64,000 nt of DNA from Pseudaquabacterium terrae (lineage in GTDB: Bacteria > Pseudomonadota > Gammaproteobacteria > Burkholderiales > Burkholderiaceae_C), in assembly GCF_013266755.1 (NCBI RefSeq), contig NZ_JABRWJ010000010.1, positions 62,001 through 126,000 on the forward strand, given 5' to 3'. How positions within the stretch are numbered: position 1 is the first letter of the stretch; each line of letters opens with the position of its first letter. A program made the translations under genes and the position numbers. This document shows positions 9,329-64,000 of this stretch, piece by piece. The notes beneath the pieces are model-generated. The model was given only the letters and a program-made list of their open reading frames with translations, had not been told where the DNA came from and did not search any database.

Positions 9329-9347
9329 GTTGATTCCTTCTTTCGCG

Positions 9348-10767: not shown

Positions 10768-10774
10768 GAAAGGA

Positions 10775-13319: not shown

Positions 13320-13354
13320 GGCGCCAACTCTAGGTACCGCGCACCCCCAGGGCC

Positions 13355-13368
13355 TTGAGCTTCGTCAA
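13355..13368. promoter_or_regulatory. FNR-type box shared by divergent narX and hemerythrin genes
   Basis: TTGA-GCTTCG-TCAA is a palindrome of the FNR/ANR/DNR class (TTGA-N6-TCAA). It sits almost exactly in the middle of the 83-base gap. For narX, TAGAGT on the minus strand (13332-13327) occupies -12 to -7 if transcription starts 41.5 bases from the box centre. For hemerythrin, TATCCT (13392-13397) lies at the matching place on the plus strand. Either direction would give a leaderless or nearly leaderless mRNA. Confidence 0.75.
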
Positions 13369-13402
13369 GGACGCAACGGCGGCCCGCGGACTATCCTGTC
13401 GC

Positions 13403-14553: not shown

Positions 14554-14648
14554 TCACTTTCACACTCGATTCCGAACGGCTTGCGGCGAGCCCCACGGAA
14601 TTGAGCCTGCTCAAGCCCCTGCTTGCCGAGGTCTGACCCAATGGCCCG

Positions 14649-18002: not shown

Positions 18003-18007
18003 GAGCG

Positions 18008-18792: not shown

Positions 18793-18808
18793 GGCGGTGG
18801 CATCCGGG

Positions 18809-47931: not shown

Positions 47932-49877
47932 GCGGTGACTCCTTGCGGGACGGCGGCCTCGCGTTGCAGCGTGCGCTTGAGTCGATAGCGCCGATCTGAC
48001 GCGGCCACCGCGCCGCCCAGCGCCATCAGCACGCAGCCGGCCCAGATCCACGAGACGAAGGGCTTGATGTAGGCCCGCACGCTCCACGCGCCGTGCTCGT
48101 CGAGCTTTTCGCCGAGCGAGACGTAGACGTCGCGCGTGAAGCCGCTGTCGATCGCGCTCTCGGTCATCGGCATCTGCGAGGACGCATAGGCGCGCTTCTC
48201 CGGCTGCAGCACGCGCAGCACGCGGCCGTCCTGCGCCAGCTCGAGCTCGCCGCGCTGCGCCGTGTAGTTGGGCCCCGGCACGCTCTGCACGCGCAGCATC
48301 TTCAGCGTGTAGCCGCCGATCGCCAGCGTGTCGCCGGGCGCCATCTTCACATCCTTCTCGATCTCGTAGCCCTTGACCAGCGTGATGCCGGCCACCAGCA
48401 CGGCCAGGCCGAGGTGCGCCAGGTGCATGCCCCAGAACGACGCCGGCGGCCGGCCGGCGCGCAGCCGCTCGCGCAGTTGCACCGCGGTGGAGGCGGCGAT
48501 CCACAAGGCGGCCAGCAGGCCCAGCCCGACCAGCGGCGTCCAGTGGCCCATCGCCACCGGGATGCCGATGGCACCGGCCACCGCCAGCAGCGCGGCCCAG
48601 CGCAGCCGGCGCGCCATGTCGCGAGCGTCGAGCCGCTTCCACTTGGCCAGCGGGCCCAGCGCCACCAGCGCCAGCAGCGGCAGCATGATCGGCAGCAGCA
48701 CGGTGTTGAAGTAGGGCGGGCCGACCGAGAGCTTGCCCAGCCCCAGCGCATCGATGAACAGCGGGTACAGCGTGCCCAGCAGCACCGAGCCGGCGGCCAC
48801 CAGCAGCAGCACGTTGTTGGCCAGCAGCAGCGTCTCGCGCGAGAGCAGCGCGAACACGCCGCCTGAGCCGACCTTCGGCGCGCGCCAGGCGAACAGCGCG
48901 AGCGAGCCGCCGACCACCGCGACCAGGAAGGCGAGGATGAAGACGCCGCGTTTCGGATCGCTGGCGAAGGCGTGCACCGAGGTCAGCACGCCGGAGCGCA
49001 CGAGGAAGGTGCCCAGCAGCGACAGCGAGAACGCGGTGATCGCCAGCAGCACGGTCCAGTTGCGGAAGACGCCGCGCTTCTCGGTGACGGCCAGCGAATG
49101 GATCAGCGCGGTGCCCACCAGCCAGGGCATCAGCGAGGCGTTTTCCACCGGGTCCCAGAACCACCAGCCGCCCCAGCCGAGCTCGTAGTAGGCCCACCAC
49201 GAGCCGAGGCCGATGCCCAGCGTCAGGTTGAGCCACGCCACTGTCGTCCATGGCCGTGACCAGCGCGCCCACGCGGCGTCCAGCCGGCCGGCCAGCAGCG
49301 CCGCGATCGCGAAGCCGAAGGCCACCGAGAAACCGACATACCCCATGTAGAGCATCGGCGGGTGGAACACGAGGCCCGGATCCTGCAGCAGCGGATTGAG
49401 GTCACGCCCGTCGGCCGCCGCCGGCAGCAGGCGCTCGAACGGGTTCGAGCTCAGCAGGATGAAGAGCAGGAAGCCGCTGGCCACCAGGCCGAGCACCCCG
49501 ATCACGCGCGCGACCATCTGATCGGGCAGCTGGCGCGACAGCAGGCTCAGGGCCAGCGTCCAGCCGTTGAGCATCAGCAGCCACAGCAGCAGCGAGCCCT
49601 CGTGGCCGCCCCACACGGCGGCGGCGCGGTACAGCGCGGGCAGCTGCGAGTTCGAGTGCTGCGCGACGTAGAGCACCGAGAAGTCGTTGGCCAGGAAGGC
49701 CAGCATCAGGCAGCCGAAGGCGAAGGCCACCAGCGCGGCCTGCGCCTGCGCGGCCGGCCGCGCGAGTGCAATCCAGCCGCCGACGCCGCGCTGCGCGCCG
49801 ACCAGCGGCAGCGTGCCCTGCACCAGCGCAACGAGCAGCGCGAGGATCAGGGCCAGGTGGCCGAGCTCGGTGGTCAT
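47928..49877 (-). CDS. ccmF: haem lyase subunit CcmF
   Basis: A 649-residue membrane protein with about 14-15 helices. The tryptophan-rich haem-handling motif is [20 protein letters not shown] (about residues 226-245), with conserved His in flanking helices and a large periplasmic loop near the C-terminus. It joins haem to CxxCH motifs with CcmH and CcmI. It is coupled by ATGA to ccmE and ccmG. The window encodes at least four multihaem cytochromes that depend on it. Confidence 0.96.
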
Positions 49878-50305
49878 GGACGGGCTCCCTTCTTGTGCGC
49901 CTGATCAACCGCGTGCTGCGCTTCCGGCGGCATGTAGTTCTCGTCGTGCTTGGCCAGCACCTCGCTGGCGGCGAAGCGGTCGCCAGCGAGGCGACCCTGC
50001 ACGACGGTGCCTTTGCCCTCGCGGAACAGGTCCGGCAGGATGCCGGTGTAGTGCACCGGGATCTCCTGGGCCGTGTCGGTGACGACGAAGTGCACCGTCA
50101 TCTGCTCGCGCCGGACGCTGCCCGGCTTGACCAGGCCGCCGACGCGGAACGCGCGGTCCTTCGGCGCCTCGCCGGCGCTGATCTGCGTCGGCGTGTAGAA
50201 GAAGGCGACGTTGCTGTTCAGCGCATTGAGCACCAGCGCCGACGCGGCGCTGACGCCGGCCAGGCCGCCGGCGATCAGGGCCAGCCGCAGGTGGCGCGGC
50301 TTCAT
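49874..50305 (-). CDS. ccmE: haem chaperone CcmE
   Basis: A 143-residue periplasmic haem carrier with one N-terminal anchor (residues 8-28) and an OB-like barrel. The covalent haem site is H120 with Y124 ([10 protein letters not shown]). It takes haem from CcmC and gives it to CcmF. The start is fixed by overlap with ccmD, the end by overlap with ccmF. Confidence 0.95.
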
Positions 50306-50478
50306 CGCGCGGCTCCGAGGCGGCGCTCGCGCTGCACGGCACGCAGCGCGGCGCGGCGGCGCTGCCGCAGCTGCCACGGCTCGATCAGCATCGCCAGCGC
50401 GCAGGCGCCGACGCTGCCCCAGACGTAGAAGGCGTAACCGCCCATCGCGAAGAAGTCGCCGACGCTAAGCCACTGCAT
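50302..50478 (-). CDS. ccmD: haem exporter protein CcmD
   Basis: A 58-residue single-helix protein: [20 protein letters not shown], then a helix [15 protein letters not shown] and a basic cytoplasmic tail rich in Arg/Gln. This matches CcmD, which helps release haem-loaded CcmE. It overlaps the ccmC end by 14 bases and the ccmE start by four. Confidence 0.9.
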
Positions 50479-51193
50479 GGTGCTGCACCCATTCGGTATG
50501 ACGCTCGCGCTCGAGGATGATGCTGCGCACCCGGGCCAGCGCGACGGCCACCGAGTACAGCCAGAAGGCCAGTGCCATCAGCAGCATGGCCCAGAGCATG
50601 GTCTGCGCCATCGACGGCGAGCGCGTCATCGACACCGACGCGCCCTGGTGCAGCGTGCTCCACCACTGCACCGAGAAATAGATGATCGGCACGTTGACCA
50701 CGCCGACGATCGCCAGGATCGCGCCGGCCTTGTCGGCGCGCCGCGGCTCGTCGATCGCCGACTGCAGCGCGAGGAAGCCGAGGTACAGGAACAACAGCAC
50801 CAGCTCCGAGGTCAGCCGCGCGTCCCACACCCACCAGGTGCCCCACATCGGCTTGCCCCACAGCGCGCCGGTCCACAGCGACAGCGCGGCGAACAGCGCG
50901 CCGGTGGGCGCCAGCGCCGAGGCCATCATCGACGCCAGCCGGATGTTGAACACCAGCCCCACCGCGGCCCAGAAGGCCATCGCCAGGTAGATGAACATCG
51001 ACAGCCAGCTCGCCGGCACGTGCACGAAGATGATGCGGTAGCCCTGGCCCTGCTGCGCATCGGTGGGCGCGACGAAGAAGCCGAGCCACAGGCCCGCGGC
51101 GGCGAGCACCAGCGCGGCCAGCGCGAACCACGGCTGCAGCCGGCCCGCCAGCGGGTAGAAGCTGCTCGGCGACGAGAAATGGTTGAGTCGCAT
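50465..51193 (-). CDS. ccmC: haem exporter/handling protein CcmC
   Basis: A 242-residue, six-helix membrane protein. The WWD motif GTWWVWDARLTSE is at about residues 117-130, with conserved His at VHVPASW and TLHQGAS. It loads haem on CcmE. It starts six bases after the ccmB stop. Confidence 0.96.
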   Translation of the reverse strand: MRLNHFSSPSSFYPLAGRLQPWFALAALVLAAAGLWLGFFVAPTDAQQGQGYRIIFVHVPASWLSMFIYLAMAFWAAVGLVFNIRLASMMASALAPTGALFAALSLWTGALWGKPMWGTWWVWDARLTSELVLLFLYLGFLALQSAIDEPRRADKAGAILAIVGVVNVPIIYFSVQWWSTLHQGASVSMTRSPSMAQTMLWAMLLMALAFWLYSVAVALARVRSIILERERHTEWVQHHAVA

Positions 51194-51199
51194 GCTTGC

Positions 51200-51865
51200 T
51201 CACTCCATCGCAATGCGCAGGGCGGCGGTGGTCGCCCAGGGCGCGAACATCGCGGCCAGCACCAGCATCGCGCCCAGCACCGACCAGTGGGCATTGACCT
51301 GCAAACCCGCGATGTACGCGTCCACCGAGCCGGCGCCGAACACCAGCGCCGGCACGAACAGCGGCAGCACCAGCAGCGACAGCACGACGGCCGCGCCGCG
51401 CACGCCCAGCGTCAGCGCCGCGCCGATCGCGCCGACCAGGCTCAACAGCGGCGTGCCGATCAGCAGCGAGGTCATCAGCACCAGCAGCTCGTCGCCGTGC
51501 AGGCCGAACTGCAGGCCCAGCAGCGGCGCCAGCAGCACCAGCGGCAGGCCGCAGGTGAGCCAGTGCGCCGCCACCTTGCCCAGCACCTGCATCGTGAACG
51601 GCTGCGAGGACAGGGCCATCTGCTCGAGCGTGCCGTCGGCATGGTCGGCCGCGAACAGGCGCGGCAGGCCGAGCAGCGTGGCCAGCAGCGCGGCGACCCA
51701 CAACACGCCGGGCGCGATGCGCCGCAGCTGCTCGGGCTCGGGCCCGATGCCGAGCGGGAACAGGCTGACGACGACGACGAAGAAGAACAGCGTCGTCAGC
51801 AGCTCGCTGCGCCGGCGCGTGGCGAGCAGCAGGTCGCGTTGCAGCGCGATCAACGCAGCGTTCAC
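51200..51865 (-). CDS. ccmB: haem exporter ABC permease CcmB
   Basis: A 221-residue membrane subunit with six helices (LFFFVVVVSLFPLGIGPEPEQL at the start, HADGTLEQMALSSQP in the first loop). It starts with GTG at 51865, overlapping the ccmA stop (GTGA), which fixes it. Works with CcmA and CcmC in releasing holo-CcmE. Confidence 0.94.
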   Translation of the reverse strand: MNAALIALQRDLLLATRRRSELLTTLFFFVVVVSLFPLGIGPEPEQLRRIAPGVLWVAALLATLLGLPRLFAADHADGTLEQMALSSQPFTMQVLGKVAAHWLTCGLPLVLLAPLLGLQFGLHGDELLVLMTSLLIGTPLLSLVGAIGAALTLGVRGAAVVLSLLVLPLFVPALVFGAGSVDAYIAGLQVNAHWSVLGAMLVLAAMFAPWATTAALRIAME

Positions 51866-52467
51866 AGTTGCAGCTCCCGGCCGTTCGGCAGCGCCACCGG
51901 CTGGTGGCTGGTCAGCACGACGATGCCGCCGCCGGCCAGCTGCTCGCCGATCAGACCGCACAGCAGCACGATGCCCTCGGCATCGAGCGCGGCGAAGGGC
52001 TCGTCGAGCAGCCAGAGCGCGGCCGGGCGCAGCAGCAGCCGCGCCAGCAGCACGCGGCGCTTCTGCCCGGCCGAAAGCTGGCGCACCGGCAGCGTCTCGC
52101 GGCCGCTCAAGCCGACGCGCCGCAGCGCGGTGACGAGCGCCATCTCGCCGGCGGCCATGCCGTCCAGCGACAGCGCGAGCGCCAGGTTCTCCAGCGCCGT
52201 CAGCTCGTCCTTCAGCGCCGCCGGATGACCGAGGTAGACCAGCGCGCGGCGATAAGCGGCGTTGTCCGGTCGCACCTCGTCGCCATACCAGCACACCACG
52301 CCGCGATCGGCCGGCGCCAGGCCGGCCAGCGTGCGCAGCAGCGTCGTCTTGCCGGCGCCGTTCTCACCCTTGACGTGCAGCCAGCCGCCGGCGCCGATCG
52401 TGAAGCTCAGGCTGTCGAACAACGGGCGTTCGCCGCGGCAGCAGACCAAGTCGGTGGCAGTCAGCAT
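51862..52467 (-). CDS. ccmA: haem exporter ATPase CcmA
   Basis: A 201-residue ABC ATPase: Walker A GENGAGKTT at residues 34-42, signature RQLSAGQKRRVLLARLLL, Walker B LWLLDEPFAALD. First gene of ccmABCDEFGHI. An FNR-type box lies 58 bases before the ATG with a plausible -10 (AATGAT, 52502-52497), giving a leader of about 23 bases. Confidence 0.95.
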   Translation of the reverse strand: MLTATDLVCCRGERPLFDSLSFTIGAGGWLHVKGENGAGKTTLLRTLAGLAPADRGVVCWYGDEVRPDNAAYRRALVYLGHPAALKDELTALENLALALSLDGMAAGEMALVTALRRVGLSGRETLPVRQLSAGQKRRVLLARLLLRPAALWLLDEPFAALDAEGIVLLCGLIGEQLAGGGIVVLTSHQPVALPNGRELQL

Positions 52468-52524: not shown

Positions 52525-52538
52525 TTGATCTCCGTCAA
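52525..52538. promoter_or_regulatory. FNR-type box of the ccm operon
   Basis: TTGA-TCTCCG-TCAA, a perfect TTGA-N6-TCAA. A minus-strand start 41.5 bases from its centre (about 52490) places AATGAT at -12 to -7. This would induce cytochrome c maturation when oxygen is low. Confidence 0.7.
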
Positions 52539-52677: not shown

Positions 52678-53037
52678 TCAGAACCCGATCGCCAGCAGCC
52701 ACGCCGCGGCGGCCAGCGTGATCGCCAGCGCTCCGCCGTAGCAGGCGAGCTTCGACAACACGCCAGTGCGGATCCCGACGTCGTGCAGGCTGTGGAAGAT
52801 GCGGTGCGCGGCATGCCACGCGAACAGCGCGATCAGCGCGAACAGCAGGCCCTTGCCGGCCCAGTGCTGTGCGAAGGCCAGCATGCGCGGGTAACTCATC
52901 AGCTCGCGCGGCAGCAGCCACCCGAGCGGCACCAGCACGCCGGTGATCAGCACCAGCACCGGCCCGAACAGCGCCGAGAGCATGCCGCCGGCGCCGAACA
53001 GCGCCCAGAAGATCGGGGCGTTGGAGCGTTTGCTCAT
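52678..53037 (-). CDS. frdD: fumarate reductase membrane anchor subunit D
   Basis: A 119-residue subunit with three helices (RSNAPIFWALFGAGGMLSALFGP, LLFALIALFAWHAAHRIFHSLHD). The HAAHRIFHSLHDVGI segment matches FrdD of the enterobacterial quinol:fumarate reductase. With FrdC it anchors FrdAB and forms the quinol site. ATGA overlap with frdC. Confidence 0.93.
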   Translation of the reverse strand: MSKRSNAPIFWALFGAGGMLSALFGPVLVLITGVLVPLGWLLPRELMSYPRMLAFAQHWAGKGLLFALIALFAWHAAHRIFHSLHDVGIRTGVLSKLACYGGALAITLAAAAWLLAIGF

Positions 53038-53426
53038 CGCGTTCCCCAGGCCAGCGCCAGCACCACCAGCGTGACCAGCAGCGCGGCGGCGAGGCCGGCG
53101 CGCGTGATCGTGCTCGCCGGCACGCGTTCGCCGCGCACGAACAGCAGCGGCATCGTCTTCGGCATGATCTGGAACCAGCTCAGCGTGTGGTAGGCCATGC
53201 CGAGCAGCAGCAGCAGGTGAAAGGCGATCGACCACGGGCTGCGCAGCCATTGCAGCCAGCCCTCGAACGCGGCCTGCCCCTGCGCCAGCCGCCAGACGCC
53301 GGCGAGCAGCACCAGCGCATAGGCCGCGACGCCGAGCGCCGTCGCTTCGCGCACCATGTAGCGCATGAAGAACGGATCGCGCCGCCACCAGCCGGCCATC
53401 GGCCGCACATAGGGCTTCGGCCTCAT
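53034..53426 (-). CDS. frdC: fumarate reductase membrane anchor subunit C
   Basis: A 130-residue, three-helix subunit beginning MRPKPYVRPMAGWWRRDPFF, almost the same as the KPYVRPM..WW start of E. coli FrdC. The glutamate and His-rich part AYHTLSWFQIMPKTMP lies between helices 2 and 3. Haem-less type D anchor pair with FrdD. It oxidises a low-potential quinol; rquA upstream suggests rhodoquinol. Confidence 0.94.
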   Translation of the reverse strand: MRPKPYVRPMAGWWRRDPFFMRYMVREATALGVAAYALVLLAGVWRLAQGQAAFEGWLQWLRSPWSIAFHLLLLLGMAYHTLSWFQIMPKTMPLLFVRGERVPASTITRAGLAAALLVTLVVLALAWGTR

Positions 53427-54172
53427 CGCGAGTCTCCGCGCGGCGCCACGAAGCGCAGGAAGTAGTCCTTCGCGCTGGCGACCTTGTTCTGGTTCACCGC
53501 GTTCGCCGGGTCGACCCCCTTGGGGCAGACCCCGCTGCAATAGCCCACCGCCGTGCAGCTCCAGACGCCTTCCTCGGCGTTGACGAGCGCCATGCGCTGC
53601 GGCCGCGCGCCATCGCGCGAGTCGGCGTTGTAGCGGTGCAGCAGCGCCATCGCCGCCGGGCCGATGAACTGGCTGTCCAGCCCGTACTGCGGGCAGGCGG
53701 AATAACACAGCAGGCAGTTGATGCACGAGCTGAACTGCTCGAACTGCGCCAGCTGCTGCGGCGTCTGCAGGTATTCGCCTTGATCCGGCGTGCGCGCTTC
53801 CTTCGGCACGATGTAGGGCGTGATGCTCTGCAGCTTGCCAATGAAGTCGCCGATGTCGACCACCAGGTCGCGCTGGATCGGAAAGTGCGCCAGCGGCTCG
53901 ATGCGCAGCGTGCCGGCGGCCGCGTAGTCGCGCAGGAAGGTCTGGCAGCCCAGGCGCGGCTTGCCGTTCACCATCACGCCGCAGCTGCCGCAGATCGCCA
54001 TCCGGCACGACCAGCGGAAGCTCAAGGAACCGTCGATGTCGTCCTTGATCGCCTGCAGCCCTTGCAGCACCGACATGTCGTCGGTCCAGGGCACGTCGAA
54101 GGCATCGAGGTGCGGGTGCGCGTCGCGCTCGGGGTTGTAGCGCAGCACTTCGATGCGGATCGTCGGTTTCAT
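53423..54172 (-). CDS. frdB: fumarate reductase iron-sulfur subunit
   Basis: A 249-residue protein with three clusters: 2Fe-2S (C56, C61, C64, C76; CRMAICGSCG), 4Fe-4S (C150, C153, C156, C160; CINCLLCYSACP) and 3Fe-4S (C206, C212, C216; CTAVGYCSGVCPKGVDP). Order and spacing match E. coli FrdB, including GYCS..CP. It passes electrons from the quinol site to FrdA. Overlaps both neighbours by four bases. Confidence 0.96.
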   Translation of the reverse strand: MKPTIRIEVLRYNPERDAHPHLDAFDVPWTDDMSVLQGLQAIKDDIDGSLSFRWSCRMAICGSCGVMVNGKPRLGCQTFLRDYAAAGTLRIEPLAHFPIQRDLVVDIGDFIGKLQSITPYIVPKEARTPDQGEYLQTPQQLAQFEQFSSCINCLLCYSACPQYGLDSQFIGPAAMALLHRYNADSRDGARPQRMALVNAEEGVWSCTAVGYCSGVCPKGVDPANAVNQNKVASAKDYFLRFVAPRGDSR

Positions 54173-55962
54173 CGTGCGGCCTCCGCGGCGTGGCGTTCGG
54201 CTTCGGCGCGCTCGCCGGCCGCACCGTAGGCGCGCGTGCCGGGCGGGCTGCGGGTGATGGTCACGTCGGCGTAGTCGATGCGCGGCGGTGCGTCCGCGCC
54301 GCTGTAGCGGGCGAGGGTGTGCTTCAGGAATTTCTGATCGTCGCGGGTCTCGAAGCCGTCGAGCCGCTGGTGCGAGCCGCGCGATTCGCGCCGCTCCAGG
54401 GCCGAGTGCGCCATCGACTGCGCGACGTCGAGCTGGAAGCCGAGCTCGATCGCCAGCAGCCACTCGGTGTTCCAGGCGCGCGAGCGGTCGTCGACGTGCA
54501 CGCGGCGATAGCGTTGCTTCAGATCGGCCAGCGTGTCGCAGGTGGCCTGCATCTCGGGCCCGCTGCGGTAGATGCCGCAGCCGTTCTCCATGCTGCGCGC
54601 CATCTCGCCGCGCAGCGCGGCGATGCGCTCGCTGCCGGCCTGGCCGACCAGCGCCAGCGCGCGCGCTTCGACATCGGCGGCTTGGGCTTCGAGCAGCGCG
54701 CTGTTCGGCACCGCAGCGCTGCGCGCGTAACGTGCGGCCTCGATGCCGGCCACTTTGCCGAAGACCAGCAGCTCGGTCAGCGAGTTCGAGCCGAGCCGGT
54801 TGGCACCGTGCAGGCCGACGCTGGAGCATTCGCCGGCCGAGTACAGCCCCGGCAGCGGCGACGCGGTGCGCGCATCGGCGGCGATGCCGCCCATCGTGTA
54901 GTGCACCGCCGGCAGCACGGGAATGGGCGCTTTCGCCGGGTCGATGCCGAGGTATTGCTCGGCCAGCTCGCAGATCTGCGGCAGCCGTTCGCGCAGCTTG
55001 CGGTGGCCGAGGTGGCGCAGGTCCAGGTGCACCGATTCGCCGTGCGGCCCGTGCACGGTGCGGCCCTTGCGCTTCTCGTGCCAGTAGGCCTGGCTCAGGC
55101 GGTCGCGCGGCCCGAGCTCCATCGCCTTGTTGCGCGGCGTCGGCTCGGCCGGCCCGAGGCCGTAGTCCTGCAGGTAGCGGTAGCCGTCCTTGTTGACCAG
55201 GAAGCCGCCTTCGCCGCGGCAGGCCTCGGTGAACAGCAGGCCGGTGCCCGGCATGCAGGTCGGGTGGTACTGCACGAACTCCATGTCGCGCAGCGGCACG
55301 CCGTGGCGGTAGGCCAGCGCCATGCCGTCGCCGGTGACAATGCCGCCGTTGGTGTTCTCGCGGAAGACGCGGCCGGCGCCGCCGGTGGCAATGATCACCG
55401 CCCGGGCCTCGATGCGCCGGAACTCGCCGCTGGCGATATCGATCGCGACGATGCCTTGCGCGCGGCCGTCGTCGACCAGCAGGTCGACGACGAAGTGCTC
55501 GTCCAGGCGCTCGATCCGCGGGTACTTGATCGAGGTCTGGAACAGCGTGTGCAGCATGTGGAAGCCGGTCTTGTCGGCGGCAAACCAGGTGCGCTCGATC
55601 TTCATGCCGCCGAAGGCCCGCACGTTGACGTGGCCGTCGTCGGTGCGGCTCCACGGGCAGCCCCAGTGCTCCATCTGCACCAGCTCGCGATGCGCCTCGG
55701 CGACGAACGTCTCCACGACGTCCTGGTCGCTGAGCCAGTCGCCGCCGGACACGGTGTCGTTGAAGTGGTGCTCGAGGCTGTCGTGCGCCTGCGTCACCGC
55801 CGCGGCGCCGCCTTCGGCCGCCACCGTGTGGCTGCGCATCGGGTAGACCTTGGAGACCAGCGTGATGCGCAGGCCGGCGTCGGCCTCGGCGACGGCGATC
55901 GCCGCGCGCAGGCCGGCACCGCCGGCGCCGACGATCACGACATCGCTGCGCAGGGTTTCCAT
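54169..55962 (-). CDS. frdA: fumarate reductase flavoprotein subunit
   Basis: A 597-residue catalytic subunit. The FAD dinucleotide fold is SDVVIVGAGGAGLRAAI (6-22), and flavin is linked to H45 in RSHTVAAEGG. Active-site regions are QYHPTCMPGTG, LFTEACRGEGG and VLPAVHYTMGGI. It reduces fumarate to succinate in the cytoplasm. The start METLRSD was chosen because it fits the family and lies directly after the last gap; upstream codons read through the inverted repeat. The enzyme could also run as succinate dehydrogenase, but FrdC/FrdD type and rquA favour fumarate reduction. Confidence 0.95.
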   Translation of the reverse strand: METLRSDVVIVGAGGAGLRAAIAVAEADAGLRITLVSKVYPMRSHTVAAEGGAAAVTQAHDSLEHHFNDTVSGGDWLSDQDVVETFVAEAHRELVQMEHWGCPWSRTDDGHVNVRAFGGMKIERTWFAADKTGFHMLHTLFQTSIKYPRIERLDEHFVVDLLVDDGRAQGIVAIDIASGEFRRIEARAVIIATGGAGRVFRENTNGGIVTGDGMALAYRHGVPLRDMEFVQYHPTCMPGTGLLFTEACRGEGGFLVNKDGYRYLQDYGLGPAEPTPRNKAMELGPRDRLSQAYWHEKRKGRTVHGPHGESVHLDLRHLGHRKLRERLPQICELAEQYLGIDPAKAPIPVLPAVHYTMGGIAADARTASPLPGLYSAGECSSVGLHGANRLGSNSLTELLVFGKVAGIEAARYARSAAVPNSALLEAQAADVEARALALVGQAGSERIAALRGEMARSMENGCGIYRSGPEMQATCDTLADLKQRYRRVHVDDRSRAWNTEWLLAIELGFQLDVAQSMAHSALERRESRGSHQRLDGFETRDDQKFLKHTLARYSGADAPPRIDYADVTITRSPPGTRAYGAAGERAEAERHAAEAAR

Positions 55963-56283: not shown

Positions 56284-57009
56284 TCAGCGCCGATAGACGA
56301 GCTGCTGGTACAGGCCGCCGAACCAGGTGCGCTTCGATTGCGGCTGCGGCGTGCCGGCCGGCAGGAAGGACTGCACGTCGTTGCGCCACAGGTCGATAGC
56401 ATACGGCTCGAGCTTGTCGAACACCAGCCGCATCAGCGGGCGCAGCGGATGCAGAGCGATCGGGCGGTGGTAGTCGACGATTACCAGCTTGCCGCCCGGC
56501 TTGAGCACGCGCATCGCTTCGCTCAAGGTAGCGCGGCGCACCGCCTCGGGTTGCTCGTGCAGCAGAAAGAACAGCAGCACCTGGTCGTAGCGGGCGTCGT
56601 CGCAGTCGAGCGACGACGAGTCGCCCTGCAGCAGCGCGACGCGCCGGTCGGCGGGCAGCTTCTGCGCCAGGTTGCTCAGCTGCACCGGCAGGATGTCGAC
56701 CACGTCGAGCGAGGCGTCGGGCGCCAGGCGCTGGCGCAGCTTGGGCGTCAGGTTGCCGTAGACGCAGGCCACCTGCAGGGTACGGCCGCTCACTTCATGG
56801 CCTATTGCGTCCAGCGCTGCGTCCCGCAGCCGGCCGTAGTGGTTGAACAGGATCAGGTTGACCAGCCACTCGCGCTCGAACACTTGCACCGCGTTGGGAT
56901 GCACGTAGGCCCACCAGTAGACCTGCTCGAGGTAGCGCGGGATGGGTTGCGTGCGCGGTGCGACGAGGCCCATCGGTTCGAGGGCGGCTTCGATCGGAGG
57001 AGGTGACAT
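56284..57009 (-). CDS. rquA: rhodoquinone biosynthesis protein RquA
   Basis: A 241-residue protein related to class I methyltransferases but with the SAM motif changed to LQVACVYGNLTPKL, a hallmark of RquA, which swaps a ubiquinone methoxy group for an amino group. Other features are YLEQVYWWAYVHPNAVQVFE near the start, LFFLLHEQPEAVRRATLSEAMRVLKPGGKLVIVDYH in the core, and NDVQSFLP near the end. The ATG at 57009 follows AAAGG and was preferred to a GTG at 57039. The product, rhodoquinone, donates electrons to fumarate reductase, encoded by the next genes. A perfect FNR palindrome stands 80 bases upstream. Confidence 0.9.
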   Translation of the reverse strand: MSPPPIEAALEPMGLVAPRTQPIPRYLEQVYWWAYVHPNAVQVFEREWLVNLILFNHYGRLRDAALDAIGHEVSGRTLQVACVYGNLTPKLRQRLAPDASLDVVDILPVQLSNLAQKLPADRRVALLQGDSSSLDCDDARYDQVLLFFLLHEQPEAVRRATLSEAMRVLKPGGKLVIVDYHRPIALHPLRPLMRLVFDKLEPYAIDLWRNDVQSFLPAGTPQPQSKRTWFGGLYQQLVYRR

Positions 57010-57089: not shown

Positions 57090-57103
57090 TTGATCGGCAT
57101 CAA
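57090..57103. promoter_or_regulatory. canonical FNR box of rquA-frdABCD
   Basis: TTGAT-CGGC-ATCAA is a perfect match to the FNR consensus. On the minus strand a start about 41 bases away (near 57055) allows TACGCT (57068-57063) as -10. It lies between rquA and the end of the MtrB-like gene. Confidence 0.8.
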
Positions 57104-57153: not shown

Positions 57154-59241
57154 TCAGAACCGATAGCGCAGCACCAGGCCCAGCAGGTGCACGGTGCCGC
57201 GCGGCGGCTGCTCGCCGAAAGCCAGCAGGTTCGGCACCGTGGCCGGCTGCACGCCGTCGAGCTGCCAGTCGCGCGCGGCGGTGCGCTCGTAGCGATAGCT
57301 GCCATGCAGGCTGAGCTGGTCATTGAAGCGCCACTGGGCGAACAGCTTCAGGCTGTCGAGCTCGGTGGTGGCGGCCGGGAAGGGCGGTGCCGAGGCGCCG
57401 GTGCGCACGATGGTTTCGCTGCGTGCGCGCGAGACCGCGAGGTTCGCGCCGAGCTCGAGCCGGCCCTTCAGCGCGCTGTACGTGACGCCCGCGCCAATGA
57501 GTGCGACGCGGTCTTTCACGCGACCCGTCCAGTCAGGGTTGCCGGCGCTCTGGCTGCCGGCCTGCACCGACTGCACCGCGTCGGCCTGCGCGAACAGGCT
57601 CAGCCGCGTCGCCTCGCTGACGGCATAGGCCAGGTCGGCCGAGACGTCGGCGCTGCGTGCATCGGTCAGGCCCACGGCCGAGCGGGTGTAGTCGTCGACC
57701 GCCACATCGACCGCAACGCCCAGCGCCAGGTTCTCGCCGAAGCTGAGATCGCTGCGCAGCGCGGCGCTGCTGCGCCGGCGGTCGGCCTGGTTGAACTTGC
57801 GCAGCAGCGGGTTCTCCGGCGGCTCGATGCCCTCGACCGGGCGGTAGTCGGACGCCTTGCGCTGGGCGTGCGCGAGCTTGAGCGTCATGCCCACGTTGTC
57901 GCGCACCTGCACGCTGCCGCGCAGCCACAGCGTGTCTTCACGCGTGATGCGCGCTGCCTGCAGCGTGCGCTCGATGCGCTCGTGCTCCAGGCCGCCGGCG
58001 AGCTTCAGGCTGCCGGGGCCGCGGTGGTCGGCGCCGAGCCTGAAGCGGTCGCGCGTGAAGCCGTGGGGCAGCGTGGTGCGGGTGCCGACGCCGCTGAAGA
58101 GGTCGGTCGCCACCAGCGGCATCGTCAGCGCCGGCGTGCGGTTGTCGCGCTGATTGCGCGTGACGCTGGCATGCACACGCAGCGCGGCCAGCGGCTGCGC
58201 GCTGACACGCAAGTTGGCGTCCAGCGTGTCGACGCGGCCGTGCAGCGAGGCCGCCGGTAGCGCGGGCACCGTCAGCGCAGGGTTCAGCGTCGCGGCGACG
58301 AAGGGTTCGTCCTGCGTCAAGCGGCCGAAGGCCAGGTCGCCGCTGAAGCGCAGGCTGCCGCCGGGCGACCAGGCCGCGGCGGCGATCAGCTGGTGCAGCT
58401 GGTTGTCCGGCGCCAGCGCGAGCTGGCCGGCCGGCGCGCTCAGCGTGCCCATGCTGAACGGGTTCGACCAGGTCAGCGCCGGCGTGTGACTGCGGAAGAT
58501 CGACGCGTGGTAACCGAGCGTGGCCTGCAGCGCGTGGCCGCTGTACGCCGCGGCGAGCTCGAGCCGGTCGGTCACCTGGTCGACCGGCAACACCAGCTGC
58601 GAGGTGGTCGAGAAGAACGAGCCGGCACCGCGCTGCGTGCCTTCGCGCCGCTCGTGGCGCAGGTCGGCGCGCCAGCTCCACGGCCCGGCCGTCGGCAGCG
58701 TGGCGCCGAGGTCGAGGATCTTGCGGTCGTAGCCGATGTCGACCGGCTGCAGCGTCGCGGCCAGCGGCATCGCGGCCGTCGTCGGCGCCGGGAAGCCGGC
58801 CGGCAGCGTCAACACGGCGCCGCCGTGGCCGAGGAAGGGTGTTGTGGCGCTATCCGTCAAATGACGCGGCAGCTGGCTGTAGCCGAAGCGCAATGCATAG
58901 CGGCCCTCGCGGCCTAGCTCGGCGGCGAGCGAGCGGCTGTCGAGCCCGAGATCGGCGGCCGCGAGGTCGGCGAAGAGGCCGTCGGCGCCGCGGTGGCGCA
59001 GCGTGCCGCCAAGCAGCACGTGGGCGCCGGAGCGGTCGTAGCCGCTGTAGTCGGCGAACTTTGCCGACTTGCCCGACTGCAGCGCGAGGCCGGCGTCGAT
59101 GCTGCCGCTCGAGCCGGCCTCGAACGGGCAGGTCTCGCACTTCCAGGCGGCGGTGTCGACGGCGAAGGCGGGTGCCGCCAGCGCGCCGAGCGCACCGAGC
59201 AGCCACAAGGGGGTGTGAGACTTCATCGCGCGCCCGTTCAT
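57154..59241 (-). CDS. mtrB: MtrB/PioB-family decaheme-associated outer-membrane barrel
   Basis: A 695-residue exported porin-like protein. After the signal peptide (PLWLLGALGALAAPAFA) comes the MtrB-type motif WKCETCPF (two Cys, C-x2-C), then repeated amphipathic strands (about 26-28) and a terminal Phe (LRYRF). Such proteins form a sheath around an MtrA-like cytochrome so electrons can cross the outer membrane. The start at 59241 makes ATGA with the mtrA stop; MKSHTP at 59226 is an alternative. The match to neighbours (decaheme cytochromes upstream) makes the assignment firm. Confidence 0.92.
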   Translation of the reverse strand: MNGRAMKSHTPLWLLGALGALAAPAFAVDTAAWKCETCPFEAGSSGSIDAGLALQSGKSAKFADYSGYDRSGAHVLLGGTLRHRGADGLFADLAAADLGLDSRSLAAELGREGRYALRFGYSQLPRHLTDSATTPFLGHGGAVLTLPAGFPAPTTAAMPLAATLQPVDIGYDRKILDLGATLPTAGPWSWRADLRHERREGTQRGAGSFFSTTSQLVLPVDQVTDRLELAAAYSGHALQATLGYHASIFRSHTPALTWSNPFSMGTLSAPAGQLALAPDNQLHQLIAAAAWSPGGSLRFSGDLAFGRLTQDEPFVAATLNPALTVPALPAASLHGRVDTLDANLRVSAQPLAALRVHASVTRNQRDNRTPALTMPLVATDLFSGVGTRTTLPHGFTRDRFRLGADHRGPGSLKLAGGLEHERIERTLQAARITREDTLWLRGSVQVRDNVGMTLKLAHAQRKASDYRPVEGIEPPENPLLRKFNQADRRRSSAALRSDLSFGENLALGVAVDVAVDDYTRSAVGLTDARSADVSADLAYAVSEATRLSLFAQADAVQSVQAGSQSAGNPDWTGRVKDRVALIGAGVTYSALKGRLELGANLAVSRARSETIVRTGASAPPFPAATTELDSLKLFAQWRFNDQLSLHGSYRYERTAARDWQLDGVQPATVPNLLAFGEQPPRGTVHLLGLVLRYRF

Positions 59242-60215
59242 CTCAGCAGCTTGGTGCCGGCAGGATGGTTCGAGCCGTGCACCTGCGAGTGGCAGTTGGT
59301 GCAGCTGCCGGCGAGCAGGAACACCGAGCCGCCGGCCGCGGTGCCGCCGCTGGCGGCGGGCAGCGCGGCGCCGGTGCGCGCCACCGCCGGATGCCCGGCG
59401 ACGCTGTGGCATTGCTGGCACAGCAGCGGCGGGCTCTTCGTCAGCAGCGCGTTGCGCACCGAGCCGTGGGCGTTGTGGCATTGGGTGCAGTCCTCGGCCG
59501 CCGGCGCGTGTTCCCATAGGAACGGGCCGCGCTTGTCGGCATGGCAGCTCTGGCAGGTCTGCGTCACGGTCGGCCGCTTCAGCATCGCGGTCGCGCTGCC
59601 GGCGTTGTGCGTGTCGTGGCAATCGGAGCAGGCCATGCGGCCGGCCTTGACCGGGTGCGCCGAGGTCTTGTGGAAGTCGGCGCGCTGCTGCTTGTGGCAG
59701 GTGAAGCAGACCTCGGGCTGGCTGGCTTTCGTGCGCACCGCGTCGTTGCCGGTGTGCAGCTTGTGGCAATCGGTGCAGGCGACGTCGCTGCGCGCGTGGG
59801 CGCCGGCGTGCCAGGCGCTGCGCTGTTCGCCCTGGTGGCAGGCGAGGCAGGCGGCATTGCGCTCGGCCACCGGCAGGAAGGAATCGGGCTTGAAGCTGTT
59901 GGTGGTCAGCTTCTTCTTGCTGCCGCCGGCCGAGTGGCGGCCGCCCGGGCCGTGGCAGGCCTCGCATTGCAGCCCACCGGGGCCGAAGGGCGCGTGCGCA
60001 TTGCCGCGCTGCGCGTGCTTGCCCTTGAAGATGGCGGCCGCGGTGAAGGTGTCGGTGTCGCTGTCGGCGTCGTGGCACTTCAGGCAGGTGTCGGCGCCCT
60101 TGGGGCTGTACTCGGTGTCGTGCCGGGTCCAGTCGGCAGCGTGAGCAGTGAGGCCGAGCGCGAGCAGCAGCAGCGTGATGAAGCGTCGAAGCAGGATCAT
60201 GGCGCGGCCGCTCAT
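59238..60215 (-). CDS. mtrA: MtrA/DmsE-type periplasmic decaheme cytochrome c
   Basis: A 325-residue exported cytochrome with a signal peptide (LLRRFITLLLLALGLTAHA) and ten CxxCH sites: CLKCH, CEACH, CLACH, CTDCH, CFTCH, CSDCH, CQSCH, CTQCH, CQQCH, CTNCH. Size and haem number match MtrA/MtoA/DmsE, which fill the MtrB barrel. The start ATG overlaps the upstream stop (ATGA); MILLRRF five codons later is an alternative. Direction of electron flow (Fe(III) reduction or Fe(II) oxidation) cannot be told from sequence. Confidence 0.94.
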   Translation of the reverse strand: MSGRAMILLRRFITLLLLALGLTAHAADWTRHDTEYSPKGADTCLKCHDADSDTDTFTAAAIFKGKHAQRGNAHAPFGPGGLQCEACHGPGGRHSAGGSKKKLTTNSFKPDSFLPVAERNAACLACHQGEQRSAWHAGAHARSDVACTDCHKLHTGNDAVRTKASQPEVCFTCHKQQRADFHKTSAHPVKAGRMACSDCHDTHNAGSATAMLKRPTVTQTCQSCHADKRGPFLWEHAPAAEDCTQCHNAHGSVRNALLTKSPPLLCQQCHSVAGHPAVARTGAALPAASGGTAAGGSVFLLAGSCTNCHSQVHGSNHPAGTKLLR

Positions 60216-62464
60216 TTCACGCGATGGACGGATTTGACATCGAAGACGCGGCCTTCGCCGTGGCACAGCACGCAGCCCTCCGGGTTGGCGGCGAGGGTCG
60301 CCGTCGTCGCGCCGAAGCTGCCGCCGTTGGCCGGGTCCTGCATGTGCAGCCGGGCGACCGCGCCGTCGTGGCAGGAGGCGCACACCGCCACCGTCGGCGA
60401 CGTGCGCAGGTTGTCCGCCGCATCGGTGCGCGAGGCGCCGGTCGAGCTGGTCGAGCCGAGGATGCCGGCCGCGGCCGGCGCGGTCCACGCACCGGTGAGG
60501 CGGTAGGTTTCGCCGACGTGGCAGGTTGCGCAGTCGCTGAGCCTGCCGGGGAAGTTGACGTGGCCGAAATCGTTGACGCTGCCGCCGAAGCCGTAGACCA
60601 CCAGGCCCTTGCTGCGGAAGCCGCCGGCGTGCAGCCCGTGGATCATCGTCTTGAAGTCGATCGACTCCTCGGCCTTGCCGTCGGCGCCGCCGCTCAACAC
60701 GCCGTTGCTCGACGGCCGCCGCGCCGCGTCGGTGGCGTTCGGGTTGTGGCAGACGGTGCAGGCGCCGATCTCGTTGCTGCGGTTGTTGCCGTGCAGGCTC
60801 AGGCTGTCATGGCAGACGTTGCACCGGGCGATGTCGACGACGCTGCGCCGCGCGACGACGCTGCCGCTGACCGCGGCGTCCCTGAACGCCGTCTTCACGG
60901 CGAGGCGGTCGGTGTACTGGCCGCGCGTCGTGACGTCACCGGCGGGGTGGCCTTCGAGCGTGACGCGCAAGGTCCCCGCCAGGCCCGCGGGCAGCGCGAC
61001 CGGCGACGTGACGGTGTAGGTGCCTGCGGCACCGGCCGGCACCGCGGCGGTCAACGCGTTGATCGTCACCGGCTGGCCGAAGGGCTGGCCGCTGCCGTCA
61101 TTGCCGAACTCGGCGGTGGTCCAGGCGATCTTGATCGCCAGCGTGCTGGCGCCGCCGGAGGCCGTGAAATGCGGGTCGGTCTTCAGGTCGTAGGGCGCGC
61201 CGCCGGCCGTCGGATCGGTCACCGAGAAATTCACGACCGGCTTCGCGCCCGGCGTGGTGCCGCTGACCGACACGATGTTCAGCTGGAAGCGCGCCGCGGC
61301 GGCCTTCAGCCGGGCCGGGAAGTCGTGCGCGATCGCGACGTCCTTCGCGTCCTTGAACTTGCCCGCGGCGTGGCACAGCACGCAGCCGGCGTTGTCGGTG
61401 GCGACGCCGCCCGGGTGTGCCTTGGTCTGGTAGGGCCTGGTGGGGTCGGGTGCGCTGCCGAAGTAGACGTTGTCGTGGCAGCTGCCGCAGGCTTCGATGC
61501 TGGGCTGGCTCTTCCAGTGGTCACCCTGCGGCGTCGCATTGGCGGCGCCCGGCGTGCCGTCGTGGCAACGCGTGCAGTTGCGCACGTCCTGCGTGAAACG
61601 CACGGAGGAGAAATCGGCACTGCCGACCTTGTACGGCACGCCCGCACGCACGCTGGGCAGCGCGGCGCCGGCGGCGTTGTAGTGGATGCGGTGCACCATC
61701 ACCTTGAAGTCGACGTTGGCGCCGCCCGCGGCCGAAGTGCCGCCGTTGTGGCAGGTCACGCACAGCTTCGTATCGGTGCGGTTGCCGTGCGCCTTCAGCA
61801 CGTTGTGGCAGGAATTGCAGGTGACGCTGGCGGCGATGTCGCGCTGCAGGTTCACCGCGCCTCCGGCGGGCACGAGGTCGAGCACGCCGGTGGCCTCCGG
61901 GTAGCTGCGGTTGGCCTGCTGCACCGTCACGCGGTGCGTCAGGCCGGCGTCGAAGCGCAGGTCGATCGGCTTGCCGTCGGCGCCGGTGCAGGGCGCCGGG
62001 CAGGCGTTGGCGGCGGGGCTCGTGATGTCGGTGGCAAACGTGTATTTGTAGCGGCCACTGCCCAGGCGTTCGAGCATGCCGAAGGCATAACCGTTGGCAA
62101 CGCGCTCCTGGCTGCCCTGCACCAGGCCGCCGCTCGAGCGGTTGATGTAGTTCTGCCAGCGCGCTGGCTCGCCATCGCCGATCGGCATCAACTTGGCGAT
62201 GTTGAAGCGCAGGTCGGCCGGCTGCAGGCCGGTCATGCCGGCGCCGGCGTGGTTGGTCACGGTGAATTCGATCACCGGCTTGCCGGCGAAGCGGGCGCTG
62301 TCGACGCGGATCGTGATCGACTCGGCGGCGGCGAGCGCGGCGGGGCCGGTGTCGATGGTCGGCGGCCGCACCGGGTCGGGCGGGGGCGTGCCGGCCGCCC
62401 CGCCGCCACCGCCGCAGGCCACGAGGGTGGCAGCCAGCCAGGCCGCTGACAACAGCCTAAGCAC
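60212..62464 (-). CDS. OmcA/MtrC-family decaheme surface lipoprotein
   Basis: A 750-residue lipoprotein. The lipobox LVAC is at residue 17, followed by GGGGG and a Pro-rich linker. Ten CxxCH sites fall in two groups of five (CNSCH, CVTCH, CTRCH, CGSCH, CVLCH at about 210-355; CNVCH, CTVCH, CATCH, CASCH, CVLCH at about 550-740), separated by beta domains, as in OmcA/MtrC. It should sit on the cell surface and exchange electrons with minerals or other acceptors. The start is GTG at 62464 and overlaps the HHH gene by 8 bases. Confidence 0.93.
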   Translation of the reverse strand: MLRLLSAAWLAATLVACGGGGGAAGTPPPDPVRPPTIDTGPAALAAAESITIRVDSARFAGKPVIEFTVTNHAGAGMTGLQPADLRFNIAKLMPIGDGEPARWQNYINRSSGGLVQGSQERVANGYAFGMLERLGSGRYKYTFATDITSPAANACPAPCTGADGKPIDLRFDAGLTHRVTVQQANRSYPEATGVLDLVPAGGAVNLQRDIAASVTCNSCHNVLKAHGNRTDTKLCVTCHNGGTSAAGGANVDFKVMVHRIHYNAAGAALPSVRAGVPYKVGSADFSSVRFTQDVRNCTRCHDGTPGAANATPQGDHWKSQPSIEACGSCHDNVYFGSAPDPTRPYQTKAHPGGVATDNAGCVLCHAAGKFKDAKDVAIAHDFPARLKAAAARFQLNIVSVSGTTPGAKPVVNFSVTDPTAGGAPYDLKTDPHFTASGGASTLAIKIAWTTAEFGNDGSGQPFGQPVTINALTAAVPAGAAGTYTVTSPVALPAGLAGTLRVTLEGHPAGDVTTRGQYTDRLAVKTAFRDAAVSGSVVARRSVVDIARCNVCHDSLSLHGNNRSNEIGACTVCHNPNATDAARRPSSNGVLSGGADGKAEESIDFKTMIHGLHAGGFRSKGLVVYGFGGSVNDFGHVNFPGRLSDCATCHVGETYRLTGAWTAPAAAGILGSTSSTGASRTDAADNLRTSPTVAVCASCHDGAVARLHMQDPANGGSFGATTATLAANPEGCVLCHGEGRVFDVKSVHRVK

Positions 62465-62759
62465 GCGGCTTTCCTTTCTGCCTGGCGATCACGCGACCCT
62501 TGATCTGCAGGTACACGCCCGCCGGCAGCGCCTTCGTCAGCACCAGGTCGGCCTTGGTCAGGTACGGCCGGTGCGCGACGATGCGCTCGGCCTCGGCGTC
62601 GCCGATGCCGGGCAACGTCTTCAGCTCGGCGCGGCCGGCGCTGTTGATGTCCACCAGCGCCGGGGCTGCCGGAAGCCTGGCCGCCGGCGCGGCGGCCAGG
62701 GCGCCGCCCGCGGCCAGCACCAGTGCGGCGAGCACAGCGCGAACGATCGTGCGTTGCAT
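62457..62759 (-). CDS. exported helix-hairpin-helix (ComEA-like) protein
   Basis: A 100-residue protein with a signal peptide (TIVRAVLAALVLAAGGALAAA). One ComEA-type helix-hairpin-helix follows: VDINSAGRAELKTLPGIGDAEAERIVAHRPY at about 36-66 (split: VDINSAGRAELKTLPGIG, then DAEAERIVAHRPY), and then a basic tail KGRVIARQKGKPRA. Such folds bind DNA in competence systems. It lies between two decaheme genes on the same strand, so here it may have a structural or binding role in the conduit; this is not known. Confidence 0.8.
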   Translation of the reverse strand: MQRTIVRAVLAALVLAAGGALAAAPAARLPAAPALVDINSAGRAELKTLPGIGDAEAERIVAHRPYLTKADLVLTKALPAGVYLQIKGRVIARQKGKPRA

Positions 62760-62766
62760 GGCTGCC

Positions 62767-64000
62767 TCACTTCTCGTGCATCACCTTGATGTCGGCGACC
62801 TTGCCTTGCGCGTGGCACAGCATGCACTGCTCGCCGCGGGCCAGCGCCTCGCTGCGCGGCGCGTAGAACGAGCCGCCGTTGGTGCGCATGTGCGAGATCG
62901 CGAGGCTCGAGTCGTGGCAGGCGACGCAGGCGGTGGCGATCGGCGAGTTCACCAGCGTCGTCGGTGCCGCCGCGGTGGTGGCGCCGGTGCCGACGTTGAA
63001 GCTGAAGCCGCCGCCGTAGGCGAAGTCCTTGGTGATGTACGGCGACATCGAGAACAGGCTCAGCGCCGATGCCGTCGAGCTGAACGTGCCGGTGGCCGCG
63101 CCGCGGTGCAGCCGGTTCGGCAGCGCATTGGCCGATGCCGTGGCACTGAAGTCGTAGGTGCCGGGCAGGTGGCAGCCCTCGCACTGCTTGAGCACGCCCG
63201 GGTACTTGATGTCGGCGAACGATTCGGTGGTGCTCAGCGCGTGCCAGGTGAAGGGCACCTCGCGCTTGTTGCCGCCGTGGATCGAATGCACGAAGCTCGT
63301 CGAATCGGCCGCCCAGCCGCTGCTGGTGCGGTTGGGCGTGTGGCACCACGAGCAGGTCGTGCCGTCGTTGCGCTGGCCGCCGTGGAAGGCCTCTTCGGTG
63401 AAAGTGCCGAGCTCCTGGTGGCAGTTGTTGCAGCGCTTGTCCTCGACCACCGCGCGCCGGCCGCTGAAGCCGTCCGCCACCTTCTGCGCATTGGGCGCGA
63501 TGACGATCAGGCCGCCGGTCTTGTTCGGCATCGCCGGGTTCAGGCCGCTGGTCGCGGTGGCCGCGGCGACCGGATAGTCCGCCAGGTTGGTCTGCGTCAG
63601 CGGCAGCGTGTTGATCACGCTGTACGAGTAGCCGAGGCCACCGGTCAGCATCACCGCGCTGGCGGGAATGGTCGCGCCGGTGAGCGTGGCGGTGTAGTAG
63701 CCGTCGGCATCGGGGCCGGCCAGCGTGCCCTTGGCGGTGCCGCTGGCGCTGCCGTTCCACAGGCTGCGCAGGTAGCTCGAGACGCTGGCGTTGAAGTCGG
63801 CCGGCGCCGCGACGCCGTCCTGCGGCACCGCGAAGACGAAGTACACGCTGGGCGCGCCCATGAAGTTGTCCCACAGCTCGGCCTTGGCGCCGGTGTTGAA
63901 GTCGGCGCGCGCGCCGTTCTGCAGCATGCGGAACACCATCACCGGATTGCGGCCCGCATTCAGCGCCACGCTCTTGATGTCGTAGCTGACCTTGATCGCG
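62767..64000 (-). CDS. OmcA/MtrC-family decaheme cytochrome, C-terminal part
   Basis: The gene enters from the right edge, so its start and lipobox are outside. The visible 411 residues hold a beta domain and five CxxCH sites (CNNCH, CSWCH, CEGCH, CVACH, CMLCH), the second pentahaem half of an OmcA/MtrC protein. MIHGLHAGG-like SFVHSIHGGNKREVPF is a further family mark. A second decaheme paralog follows downstream at 60212. The operon promoter must lie beyond position 64000. Confidence 0.88.
   Translation of the reverse strand, partial: AIKVSYDIKSVALNAGRNPVMVFRMLQNGARADFNTGAKAELWDNFMGAPSVYFVFAVPQDGVAAPADFNASVSSYLRSLWNGSASGTAKGTLAGPDADGYYTATLTGATIPASAVMLTGGLGYSYSVINTLPLTQTNLADYPVAAATATSGLNPAMPNKTGGLIVIAPNAQKVADGFSGRRAVVEDKRCNNCHQELGTFTEEAFHGGQRNDGTTCSWCHTPNRTSSGWAADSTSFVHSIHGGNKREVPFTWHALSTTESFADIKYPGVLKQCEGCHLPGTYDFSATASANALPNRLHRGAATGTFSSTASALSLFSMSPYITKDFAYGGGFSFNVGTGATTAAAPTTLVNSPIATACVACHDSSLAISHMRTNGGSFYAPRSEALARGEQCMLCHAQGKVADIKVMHEK

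Follow-up and report, generated by a model that had tools for sequence, protein, structure and literature searches.

Gene content of the locus

The window analysed in this study is a stretch of 64,000 nucleotides (bases 62001-126000 of contig 2) of the 8.04-Mb genome of Pseudaquabacterium terrae. It carries genes of a putative extracellular electron transfer (EET) conduit of the Mtr type together with rquA for rhodoquinone biosynthesis and genes for fumarate reductase and cytochrome c maturation. The mtr run is located on the minus strand and crosses the window edge; sequence and profile searches gave an order of transcription from a LutA-like gene to the Ccm genes. The lactate genes heading the operon lie beyond the window and were thus out of view of the original prediction, which had been made from the window alone. 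The features are listed below in window numbering, in which positions above 64000 are outside the window (aa, amino acids).

Far end at 71162 (outside window), minus strand: LutA-like gene with CCG domain; profile match
Between the LutA-like and LutC-like genes (outside window), minus strand: LutB-like gene (LUD + 4Fe-4S); TIGR00273 370.3 bits, below the cut-off of 444.8
Just upstream of the permease (outside window), minus strand: LutC-like frame, assigned by eye, without NCBIfam match
68381-66591 (outside window), minus strand: lactate permease; profile match
66554-66153 (outside window), minus strand: one-haem cytochrome, 1 CxxCH; best structure match 4xxl, E=3.5e-27
66145-65540 (outside window), minus strand: CymA/NapC-type tetrahaem protein, 4 CxxCH; PF03264
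65520-62767 (62767..64000 in window), minus strand: OmcA/MtrC-type decahaem cytochrome 1, 917 aa; TIGR03507
62457..62759, minus strand: small HhH protein, 100 aa; PF12836 41.1 bits, cut-off 27
60212..62464, minus strand: OmcA/MtrC-type decahaem cytochrome 2, 750 aa; TIGR03507, MtrF 3pmq best solved relative
59238..60200, minus strand: MtrA-like decahaem cytochrome, 320 aa; TIGR03508, 6r2q chain A
57154..59226, minus strand: MtrB/PioB outer-membrane barrel, 690 aa; TIGR03509, 6r2q chain B
57090..57103, no strand assigned: perfect FNR-type box TTGAT-N4-ATCAA, 80 bases before the rquA ATG; motif scan
56284..57009, minus strand: rquA, rhodoquinone biosynthesis; NF038261
56019-56091 and 56164-56236, rquA-frdA gap: inverted repeat; repeat search
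52678..55962, minus strand: frdABCD fumarate reductase (A 54169-55962, B 53423-54172, C 53034-53426, D 52678-53037)
52525..52538, no strand assigned: FNR-type box with one mismatch, upstream of ccmA; motif scan
45834..52467, minus strand: cytochrome c maturation genes (members tested ccmA, ccmC, ccmF, ccmI); profile matches
863-7755, same window: narG/H/I; profile matches

From the permease to mtrB the frames are separated by at most 36 bases (about 100 at the one-haem cytochrome if its second Met is the start), and the LutC-like frame overlaps the permease start by four bases. Wider distances were found between mtrB and rquA (144 bases) and between rquA and frdA (321 bases).

All components of an MtrCAB conduit were recognized above curated cut-offs. 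The MtrB/PioB barrel, with a CETC motif near the N terminus, scored 417.5 bits with TIGR03509 (cut-off 240.05), and the MtrA-like protein with 10 CxxCH motifs scored 280.4 bits with TIGR03508 (cut-off 192.2). In a sequence search of the structure database these two matched chain B (E=2.8e-87) and chain A (E=8.9e-81) of 6r2q, which we take to be the Shewanella MtrCAB complex. The two OmcA/MtrC-type proteins reached 463.9 and 492.9 bits with TIGR03507 (cut-off 209.3), carry 10 CxxCH motifs each, have MtrF as best structural match, and by eye show lipobox-like starts (ALIAGC in the first, ATLVAC in the second). All six matches of PF22113 in a whole-genome profile search fall in the mtr cluster. 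Hence the tight run of MtrB, MtrA and two OmcA/MtrC-type proteins described in the original prediction was recovered, as were its 25 haem sites in the window: 10 in MtrA, 10 in OmcA/MtrC 2 and, by eye, 5 in the in-window part of OmcA/MtrC 1. Over the full run from the one-haem cytochrome to MtrA, the CxxCH count per gene is 1 + 4 + 10 + 10 + 10. The locus very probably encodes an EET conduit, and surface exposure of its OmcA/MtrC-type cytochromes is predicted.

The CymA/NapC-type protein belongs to the NapC/NirT family by PF03264 (230 bits, cut-off 24.1) and its four haem motifs, with scores below the NCBIfam cut-offs (napC_nirT 238.2 of 310.6, NapC 218 of 349). The structure closest to the one-haem cytochrome, 4xxl, is presumably MtoD. 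RquA scored 292 bits with NF038261 (cut-off 175). FrdA scored 951.8 bits with TIGR01176, the quinol:fumarate reductase flavoprotein model (cut-off 932.7); FrdB (398.7 of 333) and FrdD (135.1 of 60) were also above their curated cut-offs, and FrdC was below (98.5 of 143). Profile searches confirmed the identities of CcmA/C/F/I and NarG/H/I. Of the fumarate and nitrate respiration genes originally placed next to the conduit, frd indeed follows downstream of rquA, whereas the nar genes, about 50 kb from mtrB, do not adjoin it.

The box between mtrB and rquA, which matches what we take to be the FNR consensus, is the sole perfect one in the 64-kb window, for which 0.27 FNR-type boxes with up to one mismatch are expected by chance. 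No sigma-70-like promoter was found, terminator-like sites occurred at chance level, and there were no Rfam matches in the window.

Linkage of rquA to conduit genes in related bacteria

Surroundings of rquA were compared in overlapping samples. As named loci we used the best 80 of 493 loci retrieved with an alignment led by the RquA of the window, a set that is biased towards it. The order sample comprised 349 genomes, and the own-family sample 299 genomes including that of P. terrae; at least six named loci come from assemblies that the family sample contains as well, and locus L146 is the contig of genome G329. Frames were taken stop-to-stop and searched with our own MtrB and RquA profiles, with thresholds of 100 bits for MtrB and 400 bits for FrdA in flanks. 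Many locus flanks were shortened by contig ends.

Among the named loci, 22 of 80 had mtrB within about 10 kb of rquA, and 27 had either mtrB or an open reading frame (ORF) with 8 or more haems. FrdA was commoner than mtrB in the flanks (32 of 80); at 14 of the 27 loci frdA was not in the fetched flank, several of these flanks being cut by contig ends. In the family sample RquA was found in 19 genomes with 20 loci, seven of which had mtrB in the flank (G000, G264, L199, L202, L204, L205, L207). By chance, about 0.4 named and 0.1 family loci would have mtrB near rquA, assuming one mtrB per genome and independent loci. A CymA-type gene was near rquA at 8 of the 20 family loci, our own included, an 8-haem ORF at four (L045, L194, L196, L205), and FrdA in the flank at eight; L194 also had a decahaem ORF and an HhH gene. 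The control genes were rare at named and family loci: narG 1/80 and 0/20, PFOR 2/80 and 0/20, ccmF 5/80 and 2/20. Thus the block of mtr, rquA and frd recurs in relatives.

In the order sample, RquA was above cut-off in 30 genomes (31 rows) and MtrB above 100 bits in 33. Five genomes had both (G000, G264, G329, G152, G103). In two of them the genes are neighbors, in G329 the distance is 14 kb, and in the remaining two they are distant or on different contigs. Linkage followed the presence of OmcA/MtrC, occurring in 3/5 genomes with such proteins and in 0/28 without (p=0.002). Surroundings of rquA were analysed in 30 rows beyond that of the window plus three borderline rows, and the three rows with mtr-type genes nearby, that of the window included, all belong to the RquA clade of the window (13 rows by our own profile, one of them split). 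The 35 mtrB loci of this sample without rquA in the flank yielded a single FrdA-like match (L180, 441 bits), so frd is not a general mtr neighbor. Within the genus, RquA was found in P. terrae and G871 and not in G748, G953 and G1022.

Genome-wide co-occurrence was rejected as support for a functional connection. In the order sample it was not significant. In the phylum sample, RquA was found in 12 of 13 genomes with strong MtrB outside the class, in all 12 on separate contigs of fragmented assemblies; within the same families RquA is also present in many genomes for which no MtrB match is listed, and the co-occurrence is therefore confounded by clade.

FNR-type boxes with at most one mismatch were located within 330 bases upstream of rquA at 24 of 92 loci, compared to 2.3 expected from the local density. 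These loci are the window, G264, G329, the 80 named loci and nine of the order sample, L146 repeating G329. In G264, mtrB and rquA are 38 bases apart, rquA abuts frdA, and no FNR-type box was found upstream of rquA; a single mtrB-rquA-frdA transcript is therefore likely in this genome.

Diversity of the linked conduits

A quick tree without bootstrap was calculated from 64 MtrB rows, of which 27 were linked to rquA and 37 were not. The linked rows include the four MtrB of locus L120 and one located 14 kb from rquA (L042); the MtrB of L127 was too short and was dropped. The linked state changed 8 times on this tree, and at least 7 times by the starred branches, gains and losses being indistinguishable. 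Linked MtrB form groups of the window with Aquabacterium humicola, of Ramlibacter with Caenimonas and G264, and of Noviherbaspirillum with an Oxalobacteraceae metagenome-assembled genome (MAG), and stand singly in Roseateles violae and Ramlibacter RYN_568. A. humicola RJY3 (L079), which belongs to the genus of the window, shows the mtr, rquA and frd genes in identical order. Between G264 and the window, RquA and FrdA are 71% and 79% identical, compared to only 25% for MtrB and 35% for MtrA; by these identities the two genomes have one rquA-frd with two different conduits. At L098, L099, L105 and L106, mtrB is oriented opposite to rquA.

In Herbaspirillum sp. ST 5-3 (L120), four MtrB frames of different lineages surround rquA (2229-19900), and four decahaem frames of MtrA size are present in the same 20.7-kb locus.

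Octahaem proteins of about 690 aa were found at mtr/rquA loci (L045 12555-14627, L074 6310-8367, L080, L086, L161, L194, L196, L205). They were rejected as MtrC because phmmer with both OmcA/MtrC proteins gave no match, and are still counted among the ORFs with 8 or more haems. Their C-terminal half is hydrophobic, and two tested proteins had no NCBIfam match. One of these two matched PF22113 (45.2 bits, cut-off 30), as do the CymA-type and MtrA proteins of the window, and a b561 domain was seen only below cut-off. From these features, they are possibly another quinol-cytochrome oxidoreductase replacing CymA.

At L197, L198 and L210, three of the eight family loci with a CymA-type gene, rquA is accompanied by this tetrahaem gene and by a gene for a one-haem cytochrome, in flanks without mtrB and frdA. 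These CymA-type genes mark a possible further rhodoquinol user.

Quinones and known systems

Outward transfer to minerals needs a low-potential quinol. Ubiquinol is thermodynamically a poor electron donor for many Fe(III) minerals, and the best-known models of outward electron transfer run on menaquinol. Many mtr-bearing Burkholderiales lack menaquinone genes, which raises the question of how their conduits are driven and which way electrons flow through them.

In the P. terrae genome, MenD reached at best 68 of 244.2 bits and MqnA/D gave no match; other Men proteins were not searched. Likewise, none of the 20 genomes with rquA and mtr, P. terrae included, had MenD above cut-off or a PF02621 (MqnA/D) match, other menaquinone genes not being searched, while control genomes were matched in both searches. 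Among 57 MtrB genomes, RquA occurred in 17, MenD in 11 and both in none (p=0.02), a weak result because clades are mixed; one RquA genome (G399) had a PF02621 match. According to the available text of PMC11707229, rhodoquinone and menaquinone rarely occur in the same organism, and the potential of rhodoquinone is -63 mV. For ubiquinone, about +113 mV is given in the text available of PMC9040806.

The conduit itself is a new member of a familiar type, and the frd, ccm and HhH genes next to it have been described before. The original prediction regarded the combination of EET, rhodoquinone and fumarate reductase as a new island; its novelty does not extend to these neighbors, since the consulted part of PMC8805035 describes, for Group 4 Burkholderiales, mtrCAB beside frdABCD and ccmA-I with an HhH gene between two mtrC genes. 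The window resembles Group 4 in these genes and in CymA/MtoC- and MtoD-type genes, by shared neighbors only and not by tree position, and Ramlibacter lithotrophicus and Caenimonas koreensis occur both in that data set and among our rquA loci. In contrast, the Lut-like and permease genes head the operon of the window, and the main text of PMC8805035 has zero occurrences of "rhodoquin", "rqu" and "methyltransferase"; menaquinone genes are there said to be needed by an mtrCAB recipient, and the Shewanella conduit is named as menaquinol-dependent. With Shewanella MtrCAB and CymA, the window shares the MtrA, MtrB and OmcA/MtrC families and a NapC-type tetrahaem protein, whereas its genome lacks MenD above cut-off and MqnA/D and has rquA beside the conduit. 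A resemblance to MtoAB/MtoCD of Sideroxydans lithotrophicus lies in the one-haem cytochrome of MtoD type and the CymA/MtoC-like gene; the window differs from that system by surface OmcA/MtrC cytochromes, rquA and lactate genes.

The accessible text of PMC5953543 reports rquA near complex II-type genes and mentions respiratory and cytochrome genes near rquA in general terms. In the window and its relatives, rquA is accompanied by a multihaem conduit or CymA-type gene, sometimes without frd. The distribution of rquA is mapped in PMC11707229 and PMC13386864, whose available parts do not tie it to extracellular transfer; RquA chemistry is the subject of PMC9814641, and PMC4928248 has rhodoquinone in the reference list only. 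Our searches found no description of the repeated linkage of rquA to mtr/cymA in genomes that lack menaquinone genes. They covered titles and abstract starts of mostly open-access literature, without preprints and supplements, and the link may be printed elsewhere.

Proposed electron flow and alternatives

On balance, we favor a lactate-fed outward chain running on rhodoquinol in a bacterium in which no menaquinone genes were found. The permease would import lactate and the Lut-like proteins would oxidize it, as their genes suggest. Electrons would enter the quinone pool, in which RquA would convert part of the ubiquinone to rhodoquinone at low oxygen, yielding a potential low enough for weak acceptors. 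The CymA/NapC-type protein may then oxidize rhodoquinol and pass electrons to the MtrA housed in the MtrB barrel, perhaps with the MtoD-like cytochrome as intermediate. From MtrA, the two surface decahaem cytochromes could deliver the electrons to oxides of Fe(III) or Mn(IV), to humics or to an electrode. FrdABCD would be a second consumer of low-potential quinol, and the ccm products would provide haem attachment.

Electron flow through the conduit is probably outward, as indicated by the lactate genes with which the run begins, by the OmcA/MtrC cytochromes and by the low potential of the quinone. Of the two uses left open originally, mineral respiration or Fe(II) oxidation, sequence evidence thus supports the conduit and favors the former direction. 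That rhodoquinol is a physiological donor is somewhat likelier than its opposite, the repeated adjacency of rquA and conduits in relatives suggesting that rhodoquinone drives them. We regard it as an even question whether rhodoquinone is more generally a second low-potential EET quinone, whose gene, standing repeatedly beside different MtrAB lineages or CymA-type genes in Burkholderiales that lack menaquinone genes, marks outward conduits. If so, mineral reducers could be told apart from Fe(II) oxidizers by their genomes alone. The linkage offers a testable answer to the question of what drives Burkholderiales conduits. It might also allow the direction of a conduit to be read from the genome, and it provides a starting point for constructing such chains in bacteria that have only ubiquinone.

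Several observations weigh against this interpretation. In the order sample, RquA and MtrB occurred together in 5 genomes compared to 2.8 expected (p=0.14), mtr-type genes were within about 15 kb in only 3 of 31 rquA rows above cut-off, and a second RquA clade had none near mtr genes (0/18 rows). At 34 of the 80 named loci the flank contained neither mtr-type genes nor frdA, and Lut-like genes were next to rquA only in P. terrae. The chief alternative is that rquA serves fumarate reductase only, with mtr as an island neighbor whose conduit draws on ubiquinol. Twenty genomes have rquA near mtr or cymA; FrdA was above cut-off in 16 of them, where rquA could therefore act in fumarate reduction. 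FrdA is probably also present in G370, at 901.2 bits (cut-off 932.7), and in G356 as a partial match of 434 bits, raising the count to 18, and was not found above cut-off in G354 and G364 (a 3.4-Mb MAG). G354, the same assembly as G926 and 98% complete, has two rquA loci (L092, L109). In addition, frdA flanks rquA more often than mtrB does (32 versus 22 of 80), and the FNR-type box before rquA indicates that rquA-frd may be a unit of its own in the window. OmcA/MtrC-type conduits are also present in G129 and G154, two genomes that lack both MenD and an RquA above cut-off, which suggests that ubiquinone-only conduits exist, and rhodoquinone is the known quinone of fumarate reduction according to the available text of PMC5953543. 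Nevertheless, we consider a fumarate-only role of rquA rather unlikely: at many loci rquA is beside mtr or cymA with frdA outside the fetched flank, elsewhere in the genome, the linkage is repeated with different MtrB lineages, and the near absence of narG at rquA loci is contrary to a general anaerobic island.

A reversed conduit, in which Fe(II) or Mn(II) is oxidized via an MtoAB-like path with electrons entering the quinone pool, would fit the MtoD-like cytochrome and the CymA/MtoC-like gene. Several named linked loci have no OmcA/MtrC-like ORF in the flank (e.g. L116, L117, L120, L129, L144, L154). Ramlibacter lithotrophicus, with rquA beside mtr at L084, has been implicated in oxidative EET in the part of PMC8805035 consulted. 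We hold inward flow to be improbable in the window, given that the run starts with lactate genes, that fumarate reductase and FNR-type boxes are present, and that rquA linkage is associated with OmcA/MtrC in the order sample. Moreover, from the potentials in PMC11707229 and PMC9040806, both available in part, rhodoquinone would be a poorer acceptor of Fe(II) electrons than ubiquinone.

Additional observations

The small protein encoded between the two OmcA/MtrC genes has a ComEA-like HhH motif and a signal-peptide-like start, and reached only 27.2 of 152 bits with TIGR01259. HhH proteins of this type, mostly with such a start, adjoin OmcA/MtrC genes at 11 distinct loci (window, L042, L076, L079, L082, L092, L098, L105, L127, L157, L173). 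A DNA-binding motif outside the cytoplasm next to surface cytochromes is a puzzling feature.

Two MAG records titled Gemmatimonadetes bacterium (L088) and Bordetella parapertussis (L114) contain RquA 72% and 66% identical to that of the window and are probably mis-binned or mis-named environmental contigs. The inverted repeat in the rquA-frdA gap has 73-base arms, 88% complementary and 72 bases apart, and may represent a small mobile element or a hairpin; in G264 the gap itself is absent.

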